Positions 33,128 through 41,129 of a stretch of DNA of 64,000 nt are shown here, one piece after another. The stretch spans positions 4,712,001 through 4,776,000 of the forward strand of contig NZ_CP040896.1 of NCBI RefSeq assembly GCF_006337165.1. The letters run 5' to 3'. The stretch is from Hymenobacter jejuensis. GTDB lineage: Bacteria; Bacteroidota; Bacteroidia; Cytophagales; Hymenobacteraceae. The notes beneath the pieces were generated by a model that was not told where the DNA came from, did not search any database, and worked only from the letters and a program-made list of their open reading frames with translations. Made by a program: the position numbers and the translations under genes. Each line of letters starts with the position of its first letter. Position 1 is the first letter of the stretch.

Positions 33128-33688
33128 ATGGAACCGACTATCAACAACAGCAAGCCATCTCGCGCGCGCACCAAAACTCCGCCGACTGACCTGCCCGGCT
33201 GGGGCATCGACGCGGACCCCAAAAATGACCCTACCTACCCCATGAAGCAACGCACCGACGCGGAGCAGACGGGCTACAGCTGGGAAAGACCAACTTTGCA
33301 ACAGCCCGACGTCGAGATACTTAAGTCGCTCGAACGGCCCAACCTGACGGCTGTGTTCGGCACGTCTACGCCGCCTAGCGGTTTGAGTGGCATGCTCCGT
33401 CGCCACGCCTACGCCAACTACAGCGAAAACGACAACCGGCACTGGTTCACGCTTGTGCTAGCCGACAAGATCAACGTGGTTGAATGCGTCCTCGACGATT
33501 TGGCCAGCGGCCATGTGCCCAACATCTTCAAGGAGAAAGGCTACAAAGCTTCTTGGCAACACGACCGCAAAGGTCTGATTGTCTCTCTTGGTACTACCCT
33601 AGCGATAACGGCCGGCTTGGCTTACTTGGCGTGGCCTAAGAATAAGCGGGGCAAAAAGCCAAAATCCAGGACCGTCTATCCTTCTTAA
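33128..33688 (+). CDS. Conserved-looking protein of unknown function, partner of the dehydrogenase
   Basis: A 186-residue protein not assigned to any named family. The N-terminal half is polar, with GWGIDADPKNDPTYPMK near residues 24-40, followed by RPTLQQPDVEILKSLERPNLTAVFG. The middle contains GMLRRHAYANYSENDNRHWFTLVLADKINVVECVLDDL and the C-terminus a single hydrophobic segment (TTLAITAGLAYLAWP, about residues 156-170) before a Lys/Arg-rich tail. It therefore looks like a tail-anchored membrane protein. It lies 11 bases after the FdhA-like gene and is followed by an exceptional terminator. I recall similar dehydrogenase/GWG-protein pairs in Bacteroidota; that is memory, not something seen here. 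Confidence 0.75.
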   Translation: MEPTINNSKPSRARTKTPPTDLPGWGIDADPKNDPTYPMKQRTDAEQTGYSWERPTLQQPDVEILKSLERPNLTAVFGTSTPPSGLSGMLRRHAYANYSENDNRHWFTLVLADKINVVECVLDDLASGHVPNIFKEKGYKASWQHDRKGLIVSLGTTLAITAGLAYLAWPKNKRGKKPKSRTVYPS

Positions 33689-33707
33689 ATCGCGATAGCA
33701 ACAACAA

Positions 33708-33773
33708 CAGTACTGGCAACAAAAAGCCCTGCATCCGCAAAGCGTGATGCAGGGCTTTTTGTTGCCAGTACTG
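33708..33773. terminator. Perfect 28-bp inverted repeat terminator
   Basis: Arms 33708-33735 and 33746-33773 are perfectly complementary over 28 bases, with loop CGCAAAGCGT that can pair by a further three bases. The core AAAAAGCCCTG/CAGGGCTTTTT is the same as in terminators at 52146 and 52531. It ends the dehydrogenase-partner transcript. Confidence 0.9.
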
Positions 33774-34330
33774 AATATCTCTAAGGCATCTTGGACCTGA
33801 CGCAGCTAGGAAGAGCTAAAGCCAGAAAACACCTTCAAAACCCGTAATCGGTAGAAGCAATACCAAGTATAGTATTATACTTGAGCTTTAAAGTTCTTTT
33901 GTTGGTATAGTTATAGCTAGTAATGATTCAAAGATTTGTTGTCTACATCAAATTTACGCATAATAATAAGTAAATCAACAACTTACAATAAAAAACATTA
34001 GTAAATATATATACTAAGGTTCAGTAGGCGTCCTAATTTATCAAGCGTCTTAGTCAGCAATGAACAATTTTGTATCTTATCCATTCCAATACAATTCACC
34101 ACATTGGATTGATAGTCAATATACTACAAAATATGTTTTTATACAACTAATTGAAATTCAATATCTTATATAAATGCCGTGCTATCATGATACATCATTT
34201 GTATAAGAGCATAGGTACTAATTACACTTCTAGCCTCGTGGAAAAACAATAAAAAAATACATATTGTAGAAGCAATATTTTGTATGTTTGTCTTTCACCG
34301 TTCCACAACTATTTGCCACAACTCTACCTC
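33774..34330. other. AT-rich gene-free region
   Basis: About 560 bases of strikingly AT-rich sequence, unlike the GC-rich genes on both sides. I see no ORF of coding character. It contains TTGATAGTCAA at 34109-34119, a member of the recurrent intergenic palindrome family, several AT inverted stretches, and a possible -7 box near its right end. Confidence 0.5.
34283..34290 (+). promoter_or_regulatory. Candidate -7 box of the 74-residue orphan gene
   Basis: TATGTTTG matches the TAnnTTTG -7 consensus of Bacteroidota and lies 40 bases upstream of ATG 34331. A TTG occurs 16 bases upstream of it, slightly closer than the usual spacing. Weak but consistent with a monocistronic promoter. Confidence 0.35.
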
Positions 34331-34555
34331 ATGCACCTTACGCAAATTCAGCAGGCGCTAATGCGCCTGGGTTTCAACGTGGACCCTGCCACGAATGTCT
34401 ATTGCCAGGTCACGAACAAAGGAAAGATCAGCGTTCACCGCAGCGACAACAGCCCGACCCGCGGCCTGTTTATTGAAGGGCCGGGCGGCATTGTAGTCGG
34501 CAACCCCGTCAACGAAGACCACATGCACACCATGTTGGTAACGGCCGGGTACTAA
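34331..34555 (+). CDS. Small protein of unknown function (74 residues)
   Basis: Starts MHLTQIQQALMRLGFNVDP and ends HMHTMLVTAGY. The central strand-rich part (VTNKGKISVHRSDNSPTRGLFIEGPGGIVVG) has no membrane segment and no known motif; a small alpha+beta fold is likely. The in-frame start at 34280 would add an unlikely segment, so ATG 34331 was chosen. GC-content returns to gene-like values exactly at this ORF, and a good terminator follows it within 25 bases, both of which support a real single gene. No function can be suggested. Confidence 0.65.
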   Translation: MHLTQIQQALMRLGFNVDPATNVYCQVTNKGKISVHRSDNSPTRGLFIEGPGGIVVGNPVNEDHMHTMLVTAGY

Positions 34556-34577
34556 ATCCGCTCCTGACTTAAACTTC

Positions 34578-34609
34578 ATCCCCAATCCGCTTCGCTGCGA
34601 ATTGGGGAT
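34578..34609. terminator. Intrinsic terminator after the 74-residue gene
   Basis: ATCCCCAAT-CGC pairs with GCG-ATTGGGGAT around a 6-base loop with one mismatch, followed by a T-run (ATTTTTC). Right after it, at 34627-34637, is a perfect copy of the recurrent palindrome TTGATAATCAA. Confidence 0.85.
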
Positions 34610-34664
34610 TTTTCATTTATATCTTATTGATAATCAAGCATATAAACAAGAGCCAATTTTGACA

Positions 34665-35855
34665 CTACGCGAACAGAGTATGCGCCTGTTCGATAAAAAC
34701 CCGGCTGCTCATCCAAGCCATCACCAGCACGACCAACAGGCCGCAAAAAGTCAGGAACAACGGGTGCCGGTACTCGCCTACCACCGATTTGCGGTGGGCC
34801 GCTACCAGCATTGTGCCGAGGGTAATGGGCAAAATAAAGCCGTTGAGCGCTCCAGCAAGAATCAGCAGGCTTACTGGCTTGCCAACTAGCACGAAAATGA
34901 GTGTCGACAACAGGATAAATCCGATGATGATTCGGTTTTCGTTGCGACTGATGCCGGCATGAAAAGACCGGAGAAACGTCACGGAAGTGTAAGCCGACCC
35001 AATCACCGAAGTAATTGCAGCTGAGAACATTACCACTCCGAAAAGTTTATAGCCTATCTGCCCGGCAGCCAACTTAAATACCGAAGCCGTTGGGTTGCCG
35101 GCGTCGATGGCAAGCCCTTGGCTGATCACACCGAGCGAGGCTAAAAACAGAAACACCCGGATAATCGAGGCCACCGTAATGCCCGACGCGGCGCTCGACG
35201 TAACCTGCGGCAAGGCGGCCTGCCCTTTCACGCCCGCATCCAGCAGCCGATGCCCGCCGGCAAACGTGATGTAGCCTCCCACCGTGCCCCCCACCAACGT
35301 GATGATGGACATAAAGTCGATTTTGGTAGGTGCCACCGTGCGCACCAGCGCCTCGCCCACCGGCGGACCCGACGTAACGGCCACATACACAATGCTTATG
35401 ATCATGAGCAGGCCCATGATCTGCGCAAATCGGTCCATGGCTTTGCCGGCTTCCTTCACCAGAAAAATAGCGATGGCCATAGCCGCTGTAAGCAGGGCGC
35501 CCATTTGGGGCGTGATGCCAAACAGCACTTCCAGGCCCAACCCTGCCCCGGCCACATTACCGATATTGAAGGCCAACCCGCCGAGCACAATGAGCACCGC
35601 GATCAAGCTCCCCAGCCCCGGCAGCACAATGTTGGCAATGTCAGGCGCCCGCTTCTCGGCTACGGCGATGATGCGCCAGATATTCAGCTGGACGCCCAAG
35701 TCGATGAGCACGGAGGCCAGAATAACGAAGCCAAAACTGGCCCCCAAGGATTGGGTGAAAACGGTGGTCTGGGTGAGGAAGCCGGGCCCGACTGCCGATG
35801 TCGCCATCAGAAACGCGGCCCCGAGCAGTACGCTCCAATCTTTTCGTTGCTTCAT
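34665..35855 (-). CDS. NRAMP-like transporter of the pxp operon (YcsG-like)
   Basis: A 396-residue membrane protein with about eleven helices and an NRAMP-type fold. The canonical metal-binding DPGN of helix 1 is replaced by [10 protein letters not shown] (near residue 22), and the MPH motif of helix 6 is absent ([19 protein letters not shown]), so it probably does not carry Mn/Fe. In Bacillus subtilis the NRAMP-like YcsG gene sits in the same operon as ycsF-kipI-kipA. Here the gene overlaps pxpA by 4 bases and is last in the operon, so 5-oxoproline uptake is a reasonable inference, not a demonstrated function. Confidence 0.82.
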
Positions 35856-36634
35856 ACGGGCTTTGTAAGCAACGCAGCCTCTAGCACAACTCCTTCATCT
35901 GCAAGCACTTGATTAATTTGCTGGGCAAACGCCAATGCGTGTGCGCCGTCGCCGTGAATGCATACCGTATCGGCCTGAATTGCAAGATCTTCTCCGGGTA
36001 GCGTCCGGACTTTTCCTTCTTTTACCATGCGCACCACCTGCCGGATGGCTTCGTTGGGGTCGGTGATCAGCGCCTGGGGCAACCGGCGCGAAGTCAGCGT
36101 GCCGTTGGGCTGATACGTGCGGTCGGCGAAAACCTCCTGTGCCGTCCGCAGGCCCAGCTTTTGCCCGGCCCTGATCAGTTCGCTGCCGGCCAGCCCATAC
36201 AGCACCAATTCCGGATTGACACGATGCAGGGCTTCCGCAATAGCCTCGGCGAGGGCCGCATTTACGGCGGCCATGTTGTAGAGGGCGCCGTGGGGTTTCA
36301 GGTGGTGCAAAGTGCCGCCTTCGGAGGCTACAAACCCAGCCAATGCCCCTAATTGGTAGACCACCATGTCGAAAGCTTCTTCCGGCGAAACTGCCATTTC
36401 GCGGCGGCCAAACCCCACCAGATCGGGCAGACCAGGGTGCGCCCCGATCGCTACGTTGTGTTGCAGGCACAGTCGCACGGTTTTTTTCATTACGGCTGGG
36501 TCGCCGGCATGGAAGCCGCAGGCAATGTTGGCCGAGGTCACAAAAGGCAGAATAGCCGCGTCGTGCCCAAGCTGGTAAGCACCGTAGCTCTCGCCCATGT
36601 CGCAGTTGAGGTCAACCTGCAAGGGTGGTGTCAT
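35852..36634 (-). CDS. pxpA: 5-oxoprolinase subunit A
   Basis: A 260-residue LamB/YcsF family protein. Characteristic strings are [22 protein letters not shown] at the N-terminus, [41 protein letters not shown] and [18 protein letters not shown], with [12 protein letters not shown] near the end. PxpA with PxpB and PxpC forms the prokaryotic ATP-dependent 5-oxoprolinase that opens the pyroglutamate ring to glutamate. All three are here, overlapping by 4-11 bases in the order B-C-A-carrier on the minus strand. ATG overlap with the end of pxpC implies translational coupling. Confidence 0.95.
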
Positions 36635-37641
36635 GCATTCTCGATTTTAAACTGTAAACTCTTCTTAATCTGCTGAATATCTTGCTCTTGCTTGATGTAC
36701 AGGCACTGTGCATCTTCCAGTGAAATCCTCTGAAACCGGATTTTTTGCCCCAGCGGCACCTGTGCCAAGCGCGAGAAATCGGCCGTAATCACCTGCGCAA
36801 TGCGCGGGTAGCCACCCGTCGTTTGATGGTCGGCTAGCAACGCAATGGGGTGGCCTTCGGGCGGCACCTGAATGGTGCCAAAGGTAACAGCGCTGGATAG
36901 CAGCTCGCGCGGCTCGTCCCGAAACAAGGCCGGCCCTTGCAACCGGTAGCCCATGCGGTCGGAGTCGGAGGTAACGGTGAATTCCTGGTGCCAGAAATCG
37001 TGTTGACTGCTTTCGGTAAACAATTCGTAATCAGGGCCTTGCAAAACCCGAATAACCGGGCTCGCCACGGGCTGCGGGTAGAGCTGCGGGTCGGGAGTCC
37101 ACTTGGCCTGGCCCCAATCTTTGGCGGGGTAAGCGCCAGCTAAGGCCTGCCAGAGCTTGTGCCCTTGCGGCGTAAGGCCAATGCAAGGCAGCAGATCGCC
37201 GGTTTTCAGGGCGCGGCCTCTGAACCCACCGATTTCGGCGCGCAGGTAAGTAGAATAGCTGCCCAGCACCTTCGGAATGGCGAAGCTTCCGGCCACGGCC
37301 AGATACGCCCGGATGCCCGAGCGCGGGGTGCTAAACTCCAGCACACTGCCGCGCCGCACCCACACGGGCCGGGCCATTTTTACGCGCTCGCCGTTGAGCA
37401 CCGGCGACAAATCGGCACCCGTGAGGGCAATCAAATGATCGGCTTCGAAGCGGATGCGGGGGCCTAAGTAAGTGATTTCCAGGCCGGCGCTGTCTTCCGG
37501 GTTGCCCACCAGCAGGTTGGCCACGCGTAGGGCTATGGCATCCATAGCGCCGCTTACCAAAATGCCTTGCTTCTGGTAGCCGTGCCGGCCCAGGTCCTGC
37601 ACCGTAGTCAGCAGCCCCGGGCTAAGAATGTTAAAACTCAT
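36631..37641 (-). CDS. pxpC: 5-oxoprolinase subunit C (KipA-like)
   Basis: A 336-residue biotin-dependent-carboxyltransferase-like protein. It begins [23 protein letters not shown], the family's highly conserved start, and continues with [30 protein letters not shown] and [13 protein letters not shown]. The C-terminal [19 protein letters not shown] is also diagnostic. The longer frame that begins at 37875 lies inside pxpB and was rejected; ATG 37641 overlaps the end of pxpB by 11 bases. It functions with PxpA and PxpB in the cytoplasm in 5-oxoproline hydrolysis. Confidence 0.94.
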
Positions 37642-38374
37642 ACTCGCGGCGGCGTTCGAATTCCTTTTCTGTGATGGCCACAAACCGCACCCGGTCGCCG
37701 GCCTGTAACAAGCTCGGCGACGCAGCCTGCGGTTTGAATAGCTGAAGCGGCGTACGCCCAATAAGCTGCCAGCCGCCGGGCGTCTGAATCGGGTAAACGC
37801 CCGTTTGCAGCCCGCCGATCCCGACCGAGCCGGCAGGCACTTTGGTGCGCGGCTTGTCTTTGCGCGGCACCGCAATCTTCTCGTTCAGCCCACCTATGTA
37901 CGGAAAGCCGGGCGCAAACCCGATCATGTACACCAAGTATTCGCCACGCGTATGCAAACTAATTACTTGTTTAACAGATAGTTGGGCGTAATCTGCTACA
38001 AACTCCAGATCGGGCCCAAACTTGCCGCCGTACCACACCGGAATCTCCACCACTTTGGAGCGCAGCTTCTCCTTCCGAGTTTCGGCTTGGCGCAGCAGAT
38101 CGTGAATAAAGTGCGTTACTTCTTCATACGGATTGTAGCGGCCCGCCTGGCTCAGCACCCACGGATCATAGTAAACCGTGACGCTCGCAAAAGCCGGCAC
38201 ATATTCGATGAGGCCCGGAAAAGGGTGCTCGCGCAGGCAGGCGCTGAAGGCCTGCACCCGCAGGTGCGTCGGTAGCTCAATGGCGTCGCCAAACTGCACC
38301 ACCAGTCCCGAATCGCCCACGGGCGCTAAGTGCGCGGCGGCTGTGCTGCTCGGGTTCCGCTGCGGGTTTTCCAT
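37631..38374 (-). CDS. pxpB: 5-oxoprolinase subunit B (KipI-like)
   Basis: A 247-residue protein of the KipI/allophanate-hydrolase-subunit-1 family. Conserved segments are APVGDSGLVVQFGD (near residue 17), IPVWYGGKFGPDLEFVA, YMIGFAPGFPYIGGLNEKIAVPRK, PAGSVGIGGLQTGVYPIQTPGGWQLIGRTPL and LFKPQ. In B. subtilis KipI also inhibits the kinase KinA, but the conserved role is 5-oxoprolinase with PxpA/PxpC. First gene of a four-gene minus-strand operon; the promoter should lie in the approximately 170-base gap to the divergent M1 peptidase gene. Confidence 0.95.
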   Translation of the reverse strand: MENPQRNPSSTAAAHLAPVGDSGLVVQFGDAIELPTHLRVQAFSACLREHPFPGLIEYVPAFASVTVYYDPWVLSQAGRYNPYEEVTHFIHDLLRQAETRKEKLRSKVVEIPVWYGGKFGPDLEFVADYAQLSVKQVISLHTRGEYLVYMIGFAPGFPYIGGLNEKIAVPRKDKPRTKVPAGSVGIGGLQTGVYPIQTPGGWQLIGRTPLQLFKPQAASPSLLQAGDRVRFVAITEKEFERRREYEF

Positions 38375-38543
38375 TCTTGCGTCCGTTCGGAGTTGGGGTT
38401 AGCTGTGAAAGCTGGCGTTGGTATCTTGGGCCTAAAATAACGAGCAAAAAGCGGCGCACCGACCACCCGACGTGCAGTTTACAAGTATACCACGATTCGA
38501 CACAAAGACTGCACTGCTATTCAGTGATCAACTCCGGTTCAGA

Positions 38544-41129
38544 ATGAAAAACAGCTTATCTGCGTACGCCAAAGCCGGGTTTCTTGGTTTGGCGCTTGGT
38601 ACTGCGGCTTGCAGCAAGAAAATGGTTATAACTGATAATCAGCCTGTTGAAAACGGTGTCTCCAAGGAACTGGCCGACAGCCGCAAGCAACGGATCAGCG
38701 ACATAGCGTATGCGCTTCAGTTTACGGTTCCGGCCCGCAAAGACGACCCAATTCTCGCTTCTGAAACGGTGGCGTTCCGCCTGCACGATATTCAAGCTCC
38801 GGTACAGCTCGATTTTAAGGGAAAAGCTGATCATATTAAGTTGTTGACTATCAATCAGAAGCAAGTTGCTATTGATCACCGCAACGAGCACTTGGTATTG
38901 CCCGCTTCGGCGCTCAAAACCGGCCAAAATGAGGTAAAAATTGACTTTATCGCCGGCAATCTGTCGCTCAACCGCAGCGACGACTACCTCTACACCTTGT
39001 TAGTGCCGGAGCGCGCTCGCACGGTATTTCCCGTTTTCGATCAACCTAACCTGAAAGCGACGTTCCGGCTTTCCTTAACCTTACCGCTTGACTGGCAAGC
39101 CGTTGGGAACGGACCACTGCAAGATTCGGCAGTCGTTGGCAGTACCAAAACGTACCGCTTCGCCCCGTCCGATACGATCAGCACTTACTTGTTTTCGTTT
39201 GTGGCGGGCAAGTTTACGCGGGTTTCCCGCACGATGGCCGGCCGCCAAATGCAATTTTTGCACCGCGAAACCGACCAGGACAAGCTGCGCCTGAGCCTGG
39301 ACCCCATCTTCCAGATTCATGCAGATGCGCTGGCGTTTATGCAGCAGTATACCGGCCTTCCGTATCCGTTCCGCAAATTCGATTTCGTCGCGATTCCTGA
39401 TTTTCAGTACGGCGGCATGGAGCACGTGGGCGCCATCGATTATATGGCCTCCACGCTGTTTTTGGACGAAGGCGCGACGCAGGACCAAAAGATTGCGCGC
39501 TCCAACCTGATCGCCCACGAAACCGCCCACATGTGGTTCGGGGACCTCGTAACCATGCAGTGGTTCAACGACGTGTGGATGAAGGAGGTGTTCGCCAATT
39601 TCATGGCCGACAAAATCACGCAGGTGGCCGTGGCTAATTCCAACTACGACCTCAAGTTCGTCATCGACCATTACCCCGCCGCCTACGGTATCGACCGCAC
39701 CAGCGGGGCCAACGCTATTCGCCAGCCACTCAACAACTTACAAGATGCAGGCTCGCTTTACGGCAACATTATCTACCACAAAGCGCCCATCATGATGCGG
39801 CAGCTGGAACGACTCATGGGCGCGGAGGCCTTTAAGCAAGGCTTGCAGGAATACCTAAAGAAGTACGCGCACGGCAACGCCACCTGGCCCGATCTGATCG
39901 CGATTCTGGATGCCCGCACACCCGCCGATTTGCAGGCCTGGAATCAGGTGTGGGTCAACGAGCCCGGCCGCCCTATCTTCGATTACAGCTTAAAAACGCA
40001 AAGCGGCCACATTACCGAGCTCACCCTCACGCAAAAGGCCGAAGACGGTTCCGACCGAATCTGGCCCCAACTGTTTGAGGTGACCTTGGTGTACCCCAAC
40101 GGCGCTAAAGAGCTAACTGTGAACATGAACAAGCGGCAGGTAACAGTTCCTTCCGCGGCGGGCGCGCCGGCGCCTTCGTACATTTTATTCAACTCGTCGG
40201 GGTTGGGCTACGGCGTTTTCCCGGTCGAAAAGCCCATGGCCGCTGGCATGGCGGCATTGTCAAATCCGGTGGCGCGGGCCTCGGCCTACATCAACCTTTA
40301 CGAAAACATGCTCAACCGCCGGGCTTTGGCTCCGGCGCAGTTGCTGGCCGTGTACCGGCAGGCGCTAACCAGCGAGACCGAAGAACTGAACCTGAAACTG
40401 CTAACCGGGCAAATCAGCGATATCTTCTGGAAGTTTTTGCCGCCGCCCGCTCGCGTAGCACTCGCTCCGAGTCTGGAGAAAGAGCTTTGGCAAACCATGC
40501 AGCAGCAGGCAGCCCCCAACTCCAAGAAGCTGTTATTCAAGGCTTACCAATCCGTGGCGCTGACCGCGGCGGCACAAAGCCAGTTGTATCGGGTGTGGGA
40601 GAAAGAGCAGGCGCCGGCCGGCGTGAAGCTAACGGAGGATGACTACACTGCCCTGGCCTTGGCACTAGCCGTGCGCGATTATGCCGCCGATGGGCAACTC
40701 CTGACCAAGCAATTGGCCCGCATCAAAAACCCCGACCGGCGCAAGCGCATGGAGTTTCTGATGCCCGCACTCTCGGCGGACGAGAAAACCCGCGATGCGT
40801 TTTTTGCTTCGTTGCAGGATGCCCAAAACCGGGAAAAGGAAGCGCGGGTCGTGGCGGCTTTGGGCTACTTGCATCATCCGTTGCGCCTCGCGACTTCCGA
40901 AAAATACCTACCCAAAAGTTTGGCTTTGCTGGAAGAAATTCAGCTGACGGGCGATATTTTCTTTCCGTATTCGTGGCTGCAAGCCACATTTGGGGCTTAC
41001 CAAAGCCCTACGGCAGCCGCTACGGTTCGCACGTTTCTGCAGCAACACCCCGACTACAATCCTAAGCTGCGTGCCAAAATACTACAGGCCACCGATGATC
41101 TTTTCCGTGCCGAAAAACTAATGTTATAG
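38544..41129 (+). CDS. M1 family aminopeptidase, lipoprotein
   Basis: An 861-residue zinc aminopeptidase with a lipoprotein signal (LALGTAAC, lipidated Cys about 24). The catalytic domain shows YGGMEHVGAID (GxMEN-like, with His for Asn) and HETAHMWFGDLVT with His325, Glu326 and His329, then the third ligand Glu in MKEVFANF. Architecture resembles ERAP/PepN-type M1 enzymes with a C-terminal helical domain (about 560-861). It is distinct from the M1 enzyme at 18278, which lacks the lipobox. As a surface or periplasmic lipoprotein it should process peptides taken from outside. It stands alone, divergent from the pxp operon. Confidence 0.92.
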   Translation: MKNSLSAYAKAGFLGLALGTAACSKKMVITDNQPVENGVSKELADSRKQRISDIAYALQFTVPARKDDPILASETVAFRLHDIQAPVQLDFKGKADHIKLLTINQKQVAIDHRNEHLVLPASALKTGQNEVKIDFIAGNLSLNRSDDYLYTLLVPERARTVFPVFDQPNLKATFRLSLTLPLDWQAVGNGPLQDSAVVGSTKTYRFAPSDTISTYLFSFVAGKFTRVSRTMAGRQMQFLHRETDQDKLRLSLDPIFQIHADALAFMQQYTGLPYPFRKFDFVAIPDFQYGGMEHVGAIDYMASTLFLDEGATQDQKIARSNLIAHETAHMWFGDLVTMQWFNDVWMKEVFANFMADKITQVAVANSNYDLKFVIDHYPAAYGIDRTSGANAIRQPLNNLQDAGSLYGNIIYHKAPIMMRQLERLMGAEAFKQGLQEYLKKYAHGNATWPDLIAILDARTPADLQAWNQVWVNEPGRPIFDYSLKTQSGHITELTLTQKAEDGSDRIWPQLFEVTLVYPNGAKELTVNMNKRQVTVPSAAGAPAPSYILFNSSGLGYGVFPVEKPMAAGMAALSNPVARASAYINLYENMLNRRALAPAQLLAVYRQALTSETEELNLKLLTGQISDIFWKFLPPPARVALAPSLEKELWQTMQQQAAPNSKKLLFKAYQSVALTAAAQSQLYRVWEKEQAPAGVKLTEDDYTALALALAVRDYAADGQLLTKQLARIKNPDRRKRMEFLMPALSADEKTRDAFFASLQDAQNREKEARVVAALGYLHHPLRLATSEKYLPKSLALLEEIQLTGDIFFPYSWLQATFGAYQSPTAAATVRTFLQQHPDYNPKLRAKILQATDDLFRAEKLML

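Follow-up and report, generated by a model that had tools for sequence, protein, structure and literature searches.

An Nramp-related carrier in the 5-oxoprolinase operon of Hymenobacter jejuensis and its probable role in the uptake of 5-oxoproline

Operons that bring the genes pxpA, pxpB and pxpC for the three subunits of 5-oxoprolinase together with a gene for an Nramp-related carrier are already known from Bacillus and Corynebacterium, and the locus described here, in a stretch of 64,000 nucleotides from the genome of Hymenobacter jejuensis (5.09 Mb in one contig; the whole stretch is referred to below as the window), is a further member of this kind. The pxpTABC operon of Corynebacterium glutamicum is like that of the window in placing an Nramp-related carrier, PxpT, in one operon with pxpABC, and an in-frame deletion of pxpT is reported to abolish growth on 5-oxoproline, which a plasmid copy of the gene restores (PMC13274462). 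The same report describes PxpT as a homologue of the Bacillus subtilis protein YcsG with, by the paper's own figure, 50% identity. The C. glutamicum operon differs from that of the window in its gene order, with the carrier first and A, B and C after it, and in the divergent gene for a GntR-type sensor of 5-oxoproline, PxpR, that is described for it (PMC13274462), whereas a Pfam scan of the genes flanking the window operon recognised no regulator among its immediate neighbours. The B. subtilis operon, pxpA-ycsG-ycsI-pxpB-pxpC-kipR, has another order again, and ycsI and kipR are additional to the genes of the window operon. A further comparison is offered by the mum operon of Acinetobacter baumannii, which is reported to encode the Nramp-type carrier MumT together with proteins of the allophanate-hydrolase type and a biotin carboxylase (PMC5050338); no biotin carboxylase was present among the flanking genes tested at the window operon, and an assignment of the latter to urea amidolyase or to another biotin-dependent enzyme was rejected for this reason. 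The cargo of the YcsG/PxpT/MntG carriers is in open conflict in print, being 5-oxoproline according to growth genetics and Mn2+ according to cell metal content.

We regard it as likely, with a probability of about 0.72, that the four genes of the window operon constitute a unit for the uptake and use of 5-oxoproline (pyroglutamate), with the carrier importing 5-oxoproline. A carrier of the LeuT fold would bring 5-oxoproline across the inner membrane, and PxpABC would open the ring with ATP to yield glutamate. An earlier reading of the locus, made from the sequence without database searches (the sequence-only reading), had also assigned the carrier to 5-oxoproline uptake, and by analogy with its relatives, among them the homologue PxpT with its deletion and complementation, 5-oxoproline is indeed the most likely substrate. 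The same reading spoke of a self-contained salvage unit, a term that is loose for an operon in which no regulator was recognised next to the enzyme and carrier genes. The genes of the operon and the region upstream of it are the following.

37631..38374, minus strand: pxpB, 5-oxoprolinase subunit B (CT_C_D), 247 residues; Pfam PF02682, 247.9 bits; TIGR00370, 246.5 bits, above the cut-off of 145.6
36631..37641, minus strand: pxpC, 5-oxoprolinase subunit C (CT_A_B), 336 residues; Pfam PF02626, 317.7 bits; TIGR00724, 340.6 bits, above the cut-off of 230.2
35852..36634, minus strand: pxpA, 5-oxoprolinase subunit A (LamB/YcsF), 260 residues; Pfam PF03746, 349.7 bits; NF003814, 368.5 bits, above the cut-off of 226
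34665..35855, minus strand: Nramp-related carrier of the YcsG/PxpT group, 396 residues; Pfam Nramp, 73.5 bits
38375..38543, no strand assigned: intergenic region, presumed to hold the promoters from which the pxp operon and a divergent M1 peptidase gene are transcribed

The genes follow one another on the minus strand in the order pxpB, pxpC, pxpA and carrier, and overlap by 11 bases (pxpB/pxpC), 4 bases (pxpC/pxpA) and 4 bases (pxpA/carrier), as the sequence-only reading had correctly described. The start of pxpC was placed at an ATG (MSFNILSPG), the mechanically delimited open reading frame (ORF) beginning farther upstream at a TTG. All three subunits have full-length open frames, and the PxpABC set is complete. 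PxpC passed the broader domain model TIGR00724 and stayed below the NCBIfam equivalog NF045499 (307.5 vs 500 bits), and PxpA passed two NCBIfam subfamily models and missed all three equivalog cut-offs (for NF003813, 377.6 vs 392 bits).

The features that set the carrier apart from the metal-transporting Nramps lie at two breaks in its transmembrane helices (TM).

35763..35792, minus strand: TM1 break, residues 22-31, in place of the metal motif DPGN; from the alignment with the MntH of the same genome and a helix break at 22-23 in the structural model
35250..35291, minus strand: TM6 break, residues 189-202, with GGY in place of the metal motif MPH; from the same alignment and a helix break at 193 in the model

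The reference in this comparison, a canonical MntH (443.8 bits, with DPGN and MPH), is the one other Nramp encoded in the genome. The carrier's GPGF aligns under DPGN, with no gaps in TM1, and its GGY under MPH; in TM3 the canonical ACDLAEV is represented by AFNIGNV, in which Asn replaces the conserved Glu. At the positions aligned with the metal ligands of TM1, TM3 and TM6 the carrier thus has Gly, Phe, Asn, Gly and Tyr, and it lacks the TM1 Asp, which according to one study is conserved throughout SLC11 (PMC8806188), having Gly at its place. Residues G23, P24, G25 and F26 and residues G193, G194 and Y195 are invariant in all 104 sequences of a class I set (class I being the clade of this carrier, described below) that combines the best 80 of at least 579 relatives with 24 further sequences from other genomes. 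A chance resemblance of the motifs was rejected because they are unchanged throughout this set, and the replacement of DPGN and MPH that was noticed from the sequence alone is borne out by it. The broad Pfam Nramp cut-off is exceeded by the carrier (73.5 vs 29.8 bits) and the curated metal-Nramp models are failed (NF001923, 32.3 of 430 bits; NF037982, 23 of 50); of the marks of a canonical Nramp or MntH, namely DPGN in TM1, MPH in TM6, the TM3 Glu and scores above the curated cut-offs, it has none.

An AlphaFold2 model of the carrier (predicted local distance difference test, pLDDT, 86.4; predicted template modelling score, pTM, 0.85) has TM1 broken at residues 22-23 and TM6 at 193, which coincides with both motifs. 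The top structural match was 9a52, an integrative model of YCSG (Z 57.0, root mean square deviation (rmsd) 2.5, 396 residues aligned), and the B. subtilis protein, YcsG/MntG, shares with the window carrier both GPGF and GGY in addition to the fold. The next matches were DraNramp (Z 43.5, rmsd 2.6, 384 aligned) and EleNRMT (Z 41.1, rmsd 2.9, 376 aligned), and amino-acid carriers followed lower down (AdiC, Z 33.3, rmsd 3.7, 362 aligned; MhsT, Z 30.9, rmsd 3.2, 359 aligned). A phmmer search with the carrier against PDB sequences returned no match at 0.01, although Foldseek did list the YCSG model 9a52. EleNRMT, an Nramp-related Mg2+ transporter (NRMT), shares the Nramp fold without the canonical DPGN and MPH, and differs from the window carrier in that it is reported to keep the TM1 Asp, where the carrier has Gly, as part of a DxxG-TxxA/T site (PMC8806188). 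Membership of the carrier in the NRMT group was rejected, given its GxxF in TM1 and GGY in TM6 in comparison with the 7qia segment; the M-box, which controls some NRMT members, had no match between positions 33500 and 39500.

Judged from its sequence, the carrier is a YcsG orthologue, since its identity to the YcsG protein of Bacillus tequilensis (L093, B. subtilis group) is 63%, where about 50% or more marks the YcsG/PxpT group, and the B. tequilensis copy lies inside a pxpA-ycsG-ycsI-pxpB-pxpC operon; the names of the genes at the latter locus, including a kipR-like gene, are those that we presume from the known B. subtilis order. Among the best 80 of at least 579 relatives, which extend to Bacillota, the closest is the carrier of Hymenobacter cavernae (79% identical). 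In a tree, 25 class I rows, the window carrier and sequences of the YcsG group among them, are found on one side of a branch with support 100/100. A second, well-separated clade with support 98/98, referred to as class II, is ~25% identical to class I. The class II carriers of Bacteroidota are like the window carrier in that they usually adjoin pxpA, have Gly where the TM1 Asp would be and have an [ST]S pair in TM8, and they differ from it, apart from their low identity and separate clade, in their motifs GPGT and TTVVPYN and in the gene order carrier-A-B-C.

The proposal in the sequence-only reading that the carrier has lost metal transport is not supported by what has been published on the direction of change. 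In rooted trees the Nramp-related proteins are reported to be paraphyletic and to fall outside the canonical Nramps in each of the trees sampled (PMC12873925; see also PMC4072509), and the same 2026 preprint assigns MntG to the "G-motif 3" group of Nramp-related proteins (PMC12873925). Loss is therefore the less likely direction, and the metal site of the canonical Nramps is more probably a later acquisition than something that the carrier once had and lost. A tree of our own, rooted on transporters of the neurotransmitter:sodium symporter (NSS) family and one APC protein, had class I as the first branch, but the APC row joined class I with a long-branch warning, and this tree was not used for polarity. 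Other Nramp-related proteins, with GTGS, GPGS or GPGA in TM1, were seen at L134:15819-17072 (+), at L145 near 438 (-), and at L216 and L220; they are 25-31% identical to L040 and do not directly adjoin pxp genes.

The association of these carriers with pxpA extends well beyond the window. Of the 80 best relatives (from at least 579), 77 have one or more pxp genes in the fetched locus, which covered up to 5 kb on each side, and within the genus the carrier and pxpA occur in the identical 12 of 24 other genomes (Fisher 7e-7; the genomes are not independent). In a sample of 296 genomes of Bacteroidota, among which kinship prevents Fisher values from being true probabilities, pxpA was found in 57, including 11 of the 12 genomes that have a class I carrier. 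An Nramp-related neighbour is present at 40 of the 57 pxpA genes: coordinates placed 34 such neighbours no more than 3.5 kb away, and fetching the region revealed 6 more. Of these neighbours 10 are class I and 30 class II, the latter assigned 14 by motif, 8 by BLAST label and 8 from their position only, their match to the window carrier being weak. A first count of co-occurrence, with a carrier match in 59 of the 296 genomes and both genes in 47, was set aside, as the 59 include other Nramps: in the 12 such genomes without pxpA, at least 5 of the matched genes score as canonical Nramp (378.9-398.8 bits).

The place of the carrier can also be taken by permeases of another kind. In 2 of the 57, from different families, a permease of the major facilitator superfamily (MFS) is encoded between pxpC and pxpA in the order B-C-MFS-A (L128:4635-5873 (+) and L148:4435-5676 (+)); its best NCBIfam model is that of the aromatic acid/H+ symport family, with a score below the cut-off, and it is possibly a different 5-oxoproline permease. 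Two more of the 57, both of one genus, have an MFS gene after pxpC on the same strand, in one case beyond a small opposite ORF. The occupation of the carrier slot by an unrelated permease fits an organic substrate better than Mn. In the phylum of Tolumonas, 9 of 200 genomes gave a match, and all five class I loci that were fetched have at least one pxp gene. One of these loci (L214, genome G383) combines a class I carrier, PxpA, a YcsI-like frame recognised by eye, a fused PxpBC and a biotin carboxylase, which is the order of the mum operon. By analogy with this order, and not from its own sequence, MumT would be a class I carrier, and the "urea" operon of A. baumannii may be related to that for 5-oxoprolinase.

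A canonical MntH is kept in 10 of the 12 class I genomes of the 296-genome sample. A perfect palindrome, TTTAG-N6-CTAAA, which from general knowledge of the family we take to be a candidate MntR/DtxR-type box, is present upstream of mntH in 5 of 14 regions scanned (those of the H. jejuensis genome, G110, G034, G286 and H. cavernae; loci L001, L178, L196, L165 and L174) and is missing from the other 9, including that of G184 of the same order. The pxp promoter region (38375..38543) has no MntR-like palindrome, its best match having 4 mismatches, which is the commonest background value, and no enrichment of the box was evident upstream of pxpB in 15 relatives (1 mismatch in one, 2 in one and 3-4 in 13); this differs from the B. 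subtilis operon, for which control by MntR is reported (PMC10448178). An alignment of the upstream regions of seven loci revealed no conserved block, and a 12-base stretch that the mntH and pxp upstream regions have in common (one mismatch) was dismissed, being at about the level of chance by our own estimate and containing no full palindrome. An Rfam scan of positions 33500-39500 gave matches below the gathering threshold only, with no Mn or Mg riboswitch and no M-box.

Collectively, the evidence from Bacteroidota favours 5-oxoproline over Mn as the cargo, because of the co-occurrence with pxpA, the replacement of the carrier by MFS permeases, the existence of a second pxp-linked class of carriers and the missing MntR-like box. 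A number of observations weigh against this preference. One genome with a class I carrier (G034) has no pxpA match, and in another (G312) the two genes are 119 kb apart; among class II carriers, that of G319 occurs without a pxpA match, those of G114 and G231 in genomes that have pxpA elsewhere, and in the phylum of Tolumonas only one of three class II loci includes a pxp gene (L218, but not L217 or L219). Neither an Nramp-related nor an MFS gene was seen at 13 of the 57 pxpA genes, where a few ORFs on each side were viewed, and the class I genomes G163 and G329 show no other Nramp. Further points to the contrary come from the literature. Transport of Mn, which the sequence-only reading itself had named as evidence against its proposal, is in part on record for the orthologue YcsG, which was renamed MntG in a report that its overexpression raises cell Mn, that MntR and AhrC bind the B. 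subtilis pxpA promoter and that several trials of an mntH mntA ycsG triple mutant were unsuccessful (PMC10448178); MumT, from a similar operon, is reported to be a Mn importer that raises cell Mn (PMC5050338).

These reports, together with the Nramp fold itself (Z 43.5 to DraNramp), are what could be said for the carrier being a Mn2+ importer of the MntG/MumT type, for example for a metal-dependent step in the use of 5-oxoproline. We consider this unlikely for the window carrier, in which the places of the metal ligands are otherwise occupied, in a genome that has a canonical MntH with an MntR-like box elsewhere and no such box at pxp, and at a slot in which MFS permeases can stand; moreover, the B. 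subtilis data, as reported, are cell Mn contents and genetics rather than transport by the purified protein (PMC10448178). The two sets of published phenotypes would be reconciled (PMC13274462 with PMC10448178) if the carrier moved 5-oxoproline jointly with a divalent cation or bound in a complex with metal, and metal transport is not excluded by the C. glutamicum authors in their report (PMC13274462). Possible ligands for a cation exist in D52, D141 and H202, conserved in 104 of 104 class I sequences, which by the same token count against a purely organic cargo; these residues are not at the aligned canonical metal site, and a mixed cargo of this sort seems quite improbable. It is more doubtful still that the cargo is some other small organic acid or a lactam, produced or consumed beside 5-oxoproline, or that the carrier works as an exporter of 5-oxoproline. 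Subunits of the KipI/KipA type do occur in other enzymes (there are matches to urea carboxylase), one class I operon includes a biotin carboxylase (L214) and the G034 carrier has no pxpA for a partner, but PxpT is reported to be needed for growth on external 5-oxoproline (PMC13274462) and the window operon is a plain pxpBCA. Among the 13 pxpA genes without either type of neighbour, we observed an aquaporin-type gene in L150 and in L129 a protein with five TM and no Pfam match; the class I carrier of G034 (L151) adjoins an ORF that resembles a phosphoesterase by eye.

If the carrier does import 5-oxoproline, the substrate might sit at the GPG and GGY breaks of TM1 and TM6, and Na+ might drive the uptake from a site of the Na2 type, formed by the Thr/Ser-Ser pair of TM8.

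35007..35021, minus strand: TM8 segment A279-A-I-T282-S283, candidate Na2-type sodium site; best ungapped window for the NSS TM8 profile

The Na2 site, according to Bozzi and colleagues, is made up of two Ser/Thr residues in succession in TM8 and of main-chain carbonyls, and a remnant of it possibly exists in metal Nramps (PMC6398981). When profiles of NSS transporters were slid without gaps along each group of sequences, the TM1 profile scored highest on the GPGF segment in class I (19.2, with 7.5 at the next place) and the TM8 profile ranked the A279-T282-S283 segment first (17.8, next 11.5), compared with 1.1 (third) and 5.8 (first) for the same places of the canonical Nramps. Residue 282 is Thr in 87 and Ser in 17 of the 104 sequences and residue 283 is Ser in all 104, and the register against NSS holds. 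The TM6 profile favours TM6 of class I by a hair (4.5 vs 4.4) and fits the canonical Nramps better (11.6), and in class II the TM1 place came second (8.8). Points against the proposal are that the TM8 profile preferred a register shifted by four in class II (10.2 vs 8.1) and that an HHalign comparison of class I with NSS transporters gave no significant link (probability 0.35%). A further one is that in LeuT backbone NH groups bind the carboxylate of the substrate, and P24 of the carrier takes away one backbone NH equivalent to these. The sodium site is accordingly argued from short ungapped matches in class I, as the HHalign result is not significant and the class II register differs, and Na+ coupling of the uptake is a tentative proposal that we place somewhat short of even odds.

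Upstream of the operon and divergent from it lies a gene whose product might supply the substrate.

38544..41129, plus strand: M1 metallo-aminopeptidase with a lipoprotein-like start (by eye), GGMEH and HETAH; Peptidase_M1, 170.1 bits, in the longer mechanical ORF 38472-41126

Most M1 aminopeptidases carry GAMEN at the place where this protein has GGMEH. A divergent M1 gene stands beside pxpB in 12 of 15 loci of Hymenobacter, Pontibacter and Rufibacter and in 9 of 13 of a second set from the same genus, which may overlap the former. As a control, five other neighbours in the window matched in none of 35 loci, the shorter of which do not reach all their places. The 24 same-genus genomes comprise 11 with both M1 and pxpA, 1 with pxpA only, 3 with M1 only and 9 with neither (Fisher 0.003; the genomes are related), and in 3 of the 11 with both the two genes are apart. 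Most exported proteins of Bacteroidota are reported to be capped with pyroglutamate (PMC10653852), and a C15 pyroglutamyl peptidase as a source of 5-oxoproline had no match in the genome; because of these two points we offer the testable guess that the M1 protein might release pyroglutamate. Our literature search found no paper that joins a pyroglutamyl aminopeptidase with a 5-oxoprolinase operon.

A wider scheme can be drawn from these elements, in which the Nramp-related carriers with Gly in TM1 (class I and class II) would be Na+-driven 5-oxoproline carriers that keep an older LeuT-type site, the metal Nramps would have been derived later, and in Hymenobacter and its kin the exported M1 protein would free pyroglutamate from the blocked N-termini of exported proteins, so that release, uptake and use form one pathway. 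Taken as a whole this scheme is speculative and has, in our estimate, an outside chance of being correct. If the site is indeed an older one of the amino-acid type, the group would mark a step from carriers of organic solutes to the metal Nramps.

Of seven class I loci that belong to other families of the phylum, one has a homologue of the M1 gene, at the opposite end and downstream of the carrier (L236:2-1219 (-)); no homologue was present in 42 other fetched loci. In one genome of the same genus, pxpA is found in two frames (G010:C1:3059231-3059946, part of L221), which would mean that the gene decayed recently or that its sequence contains an error.

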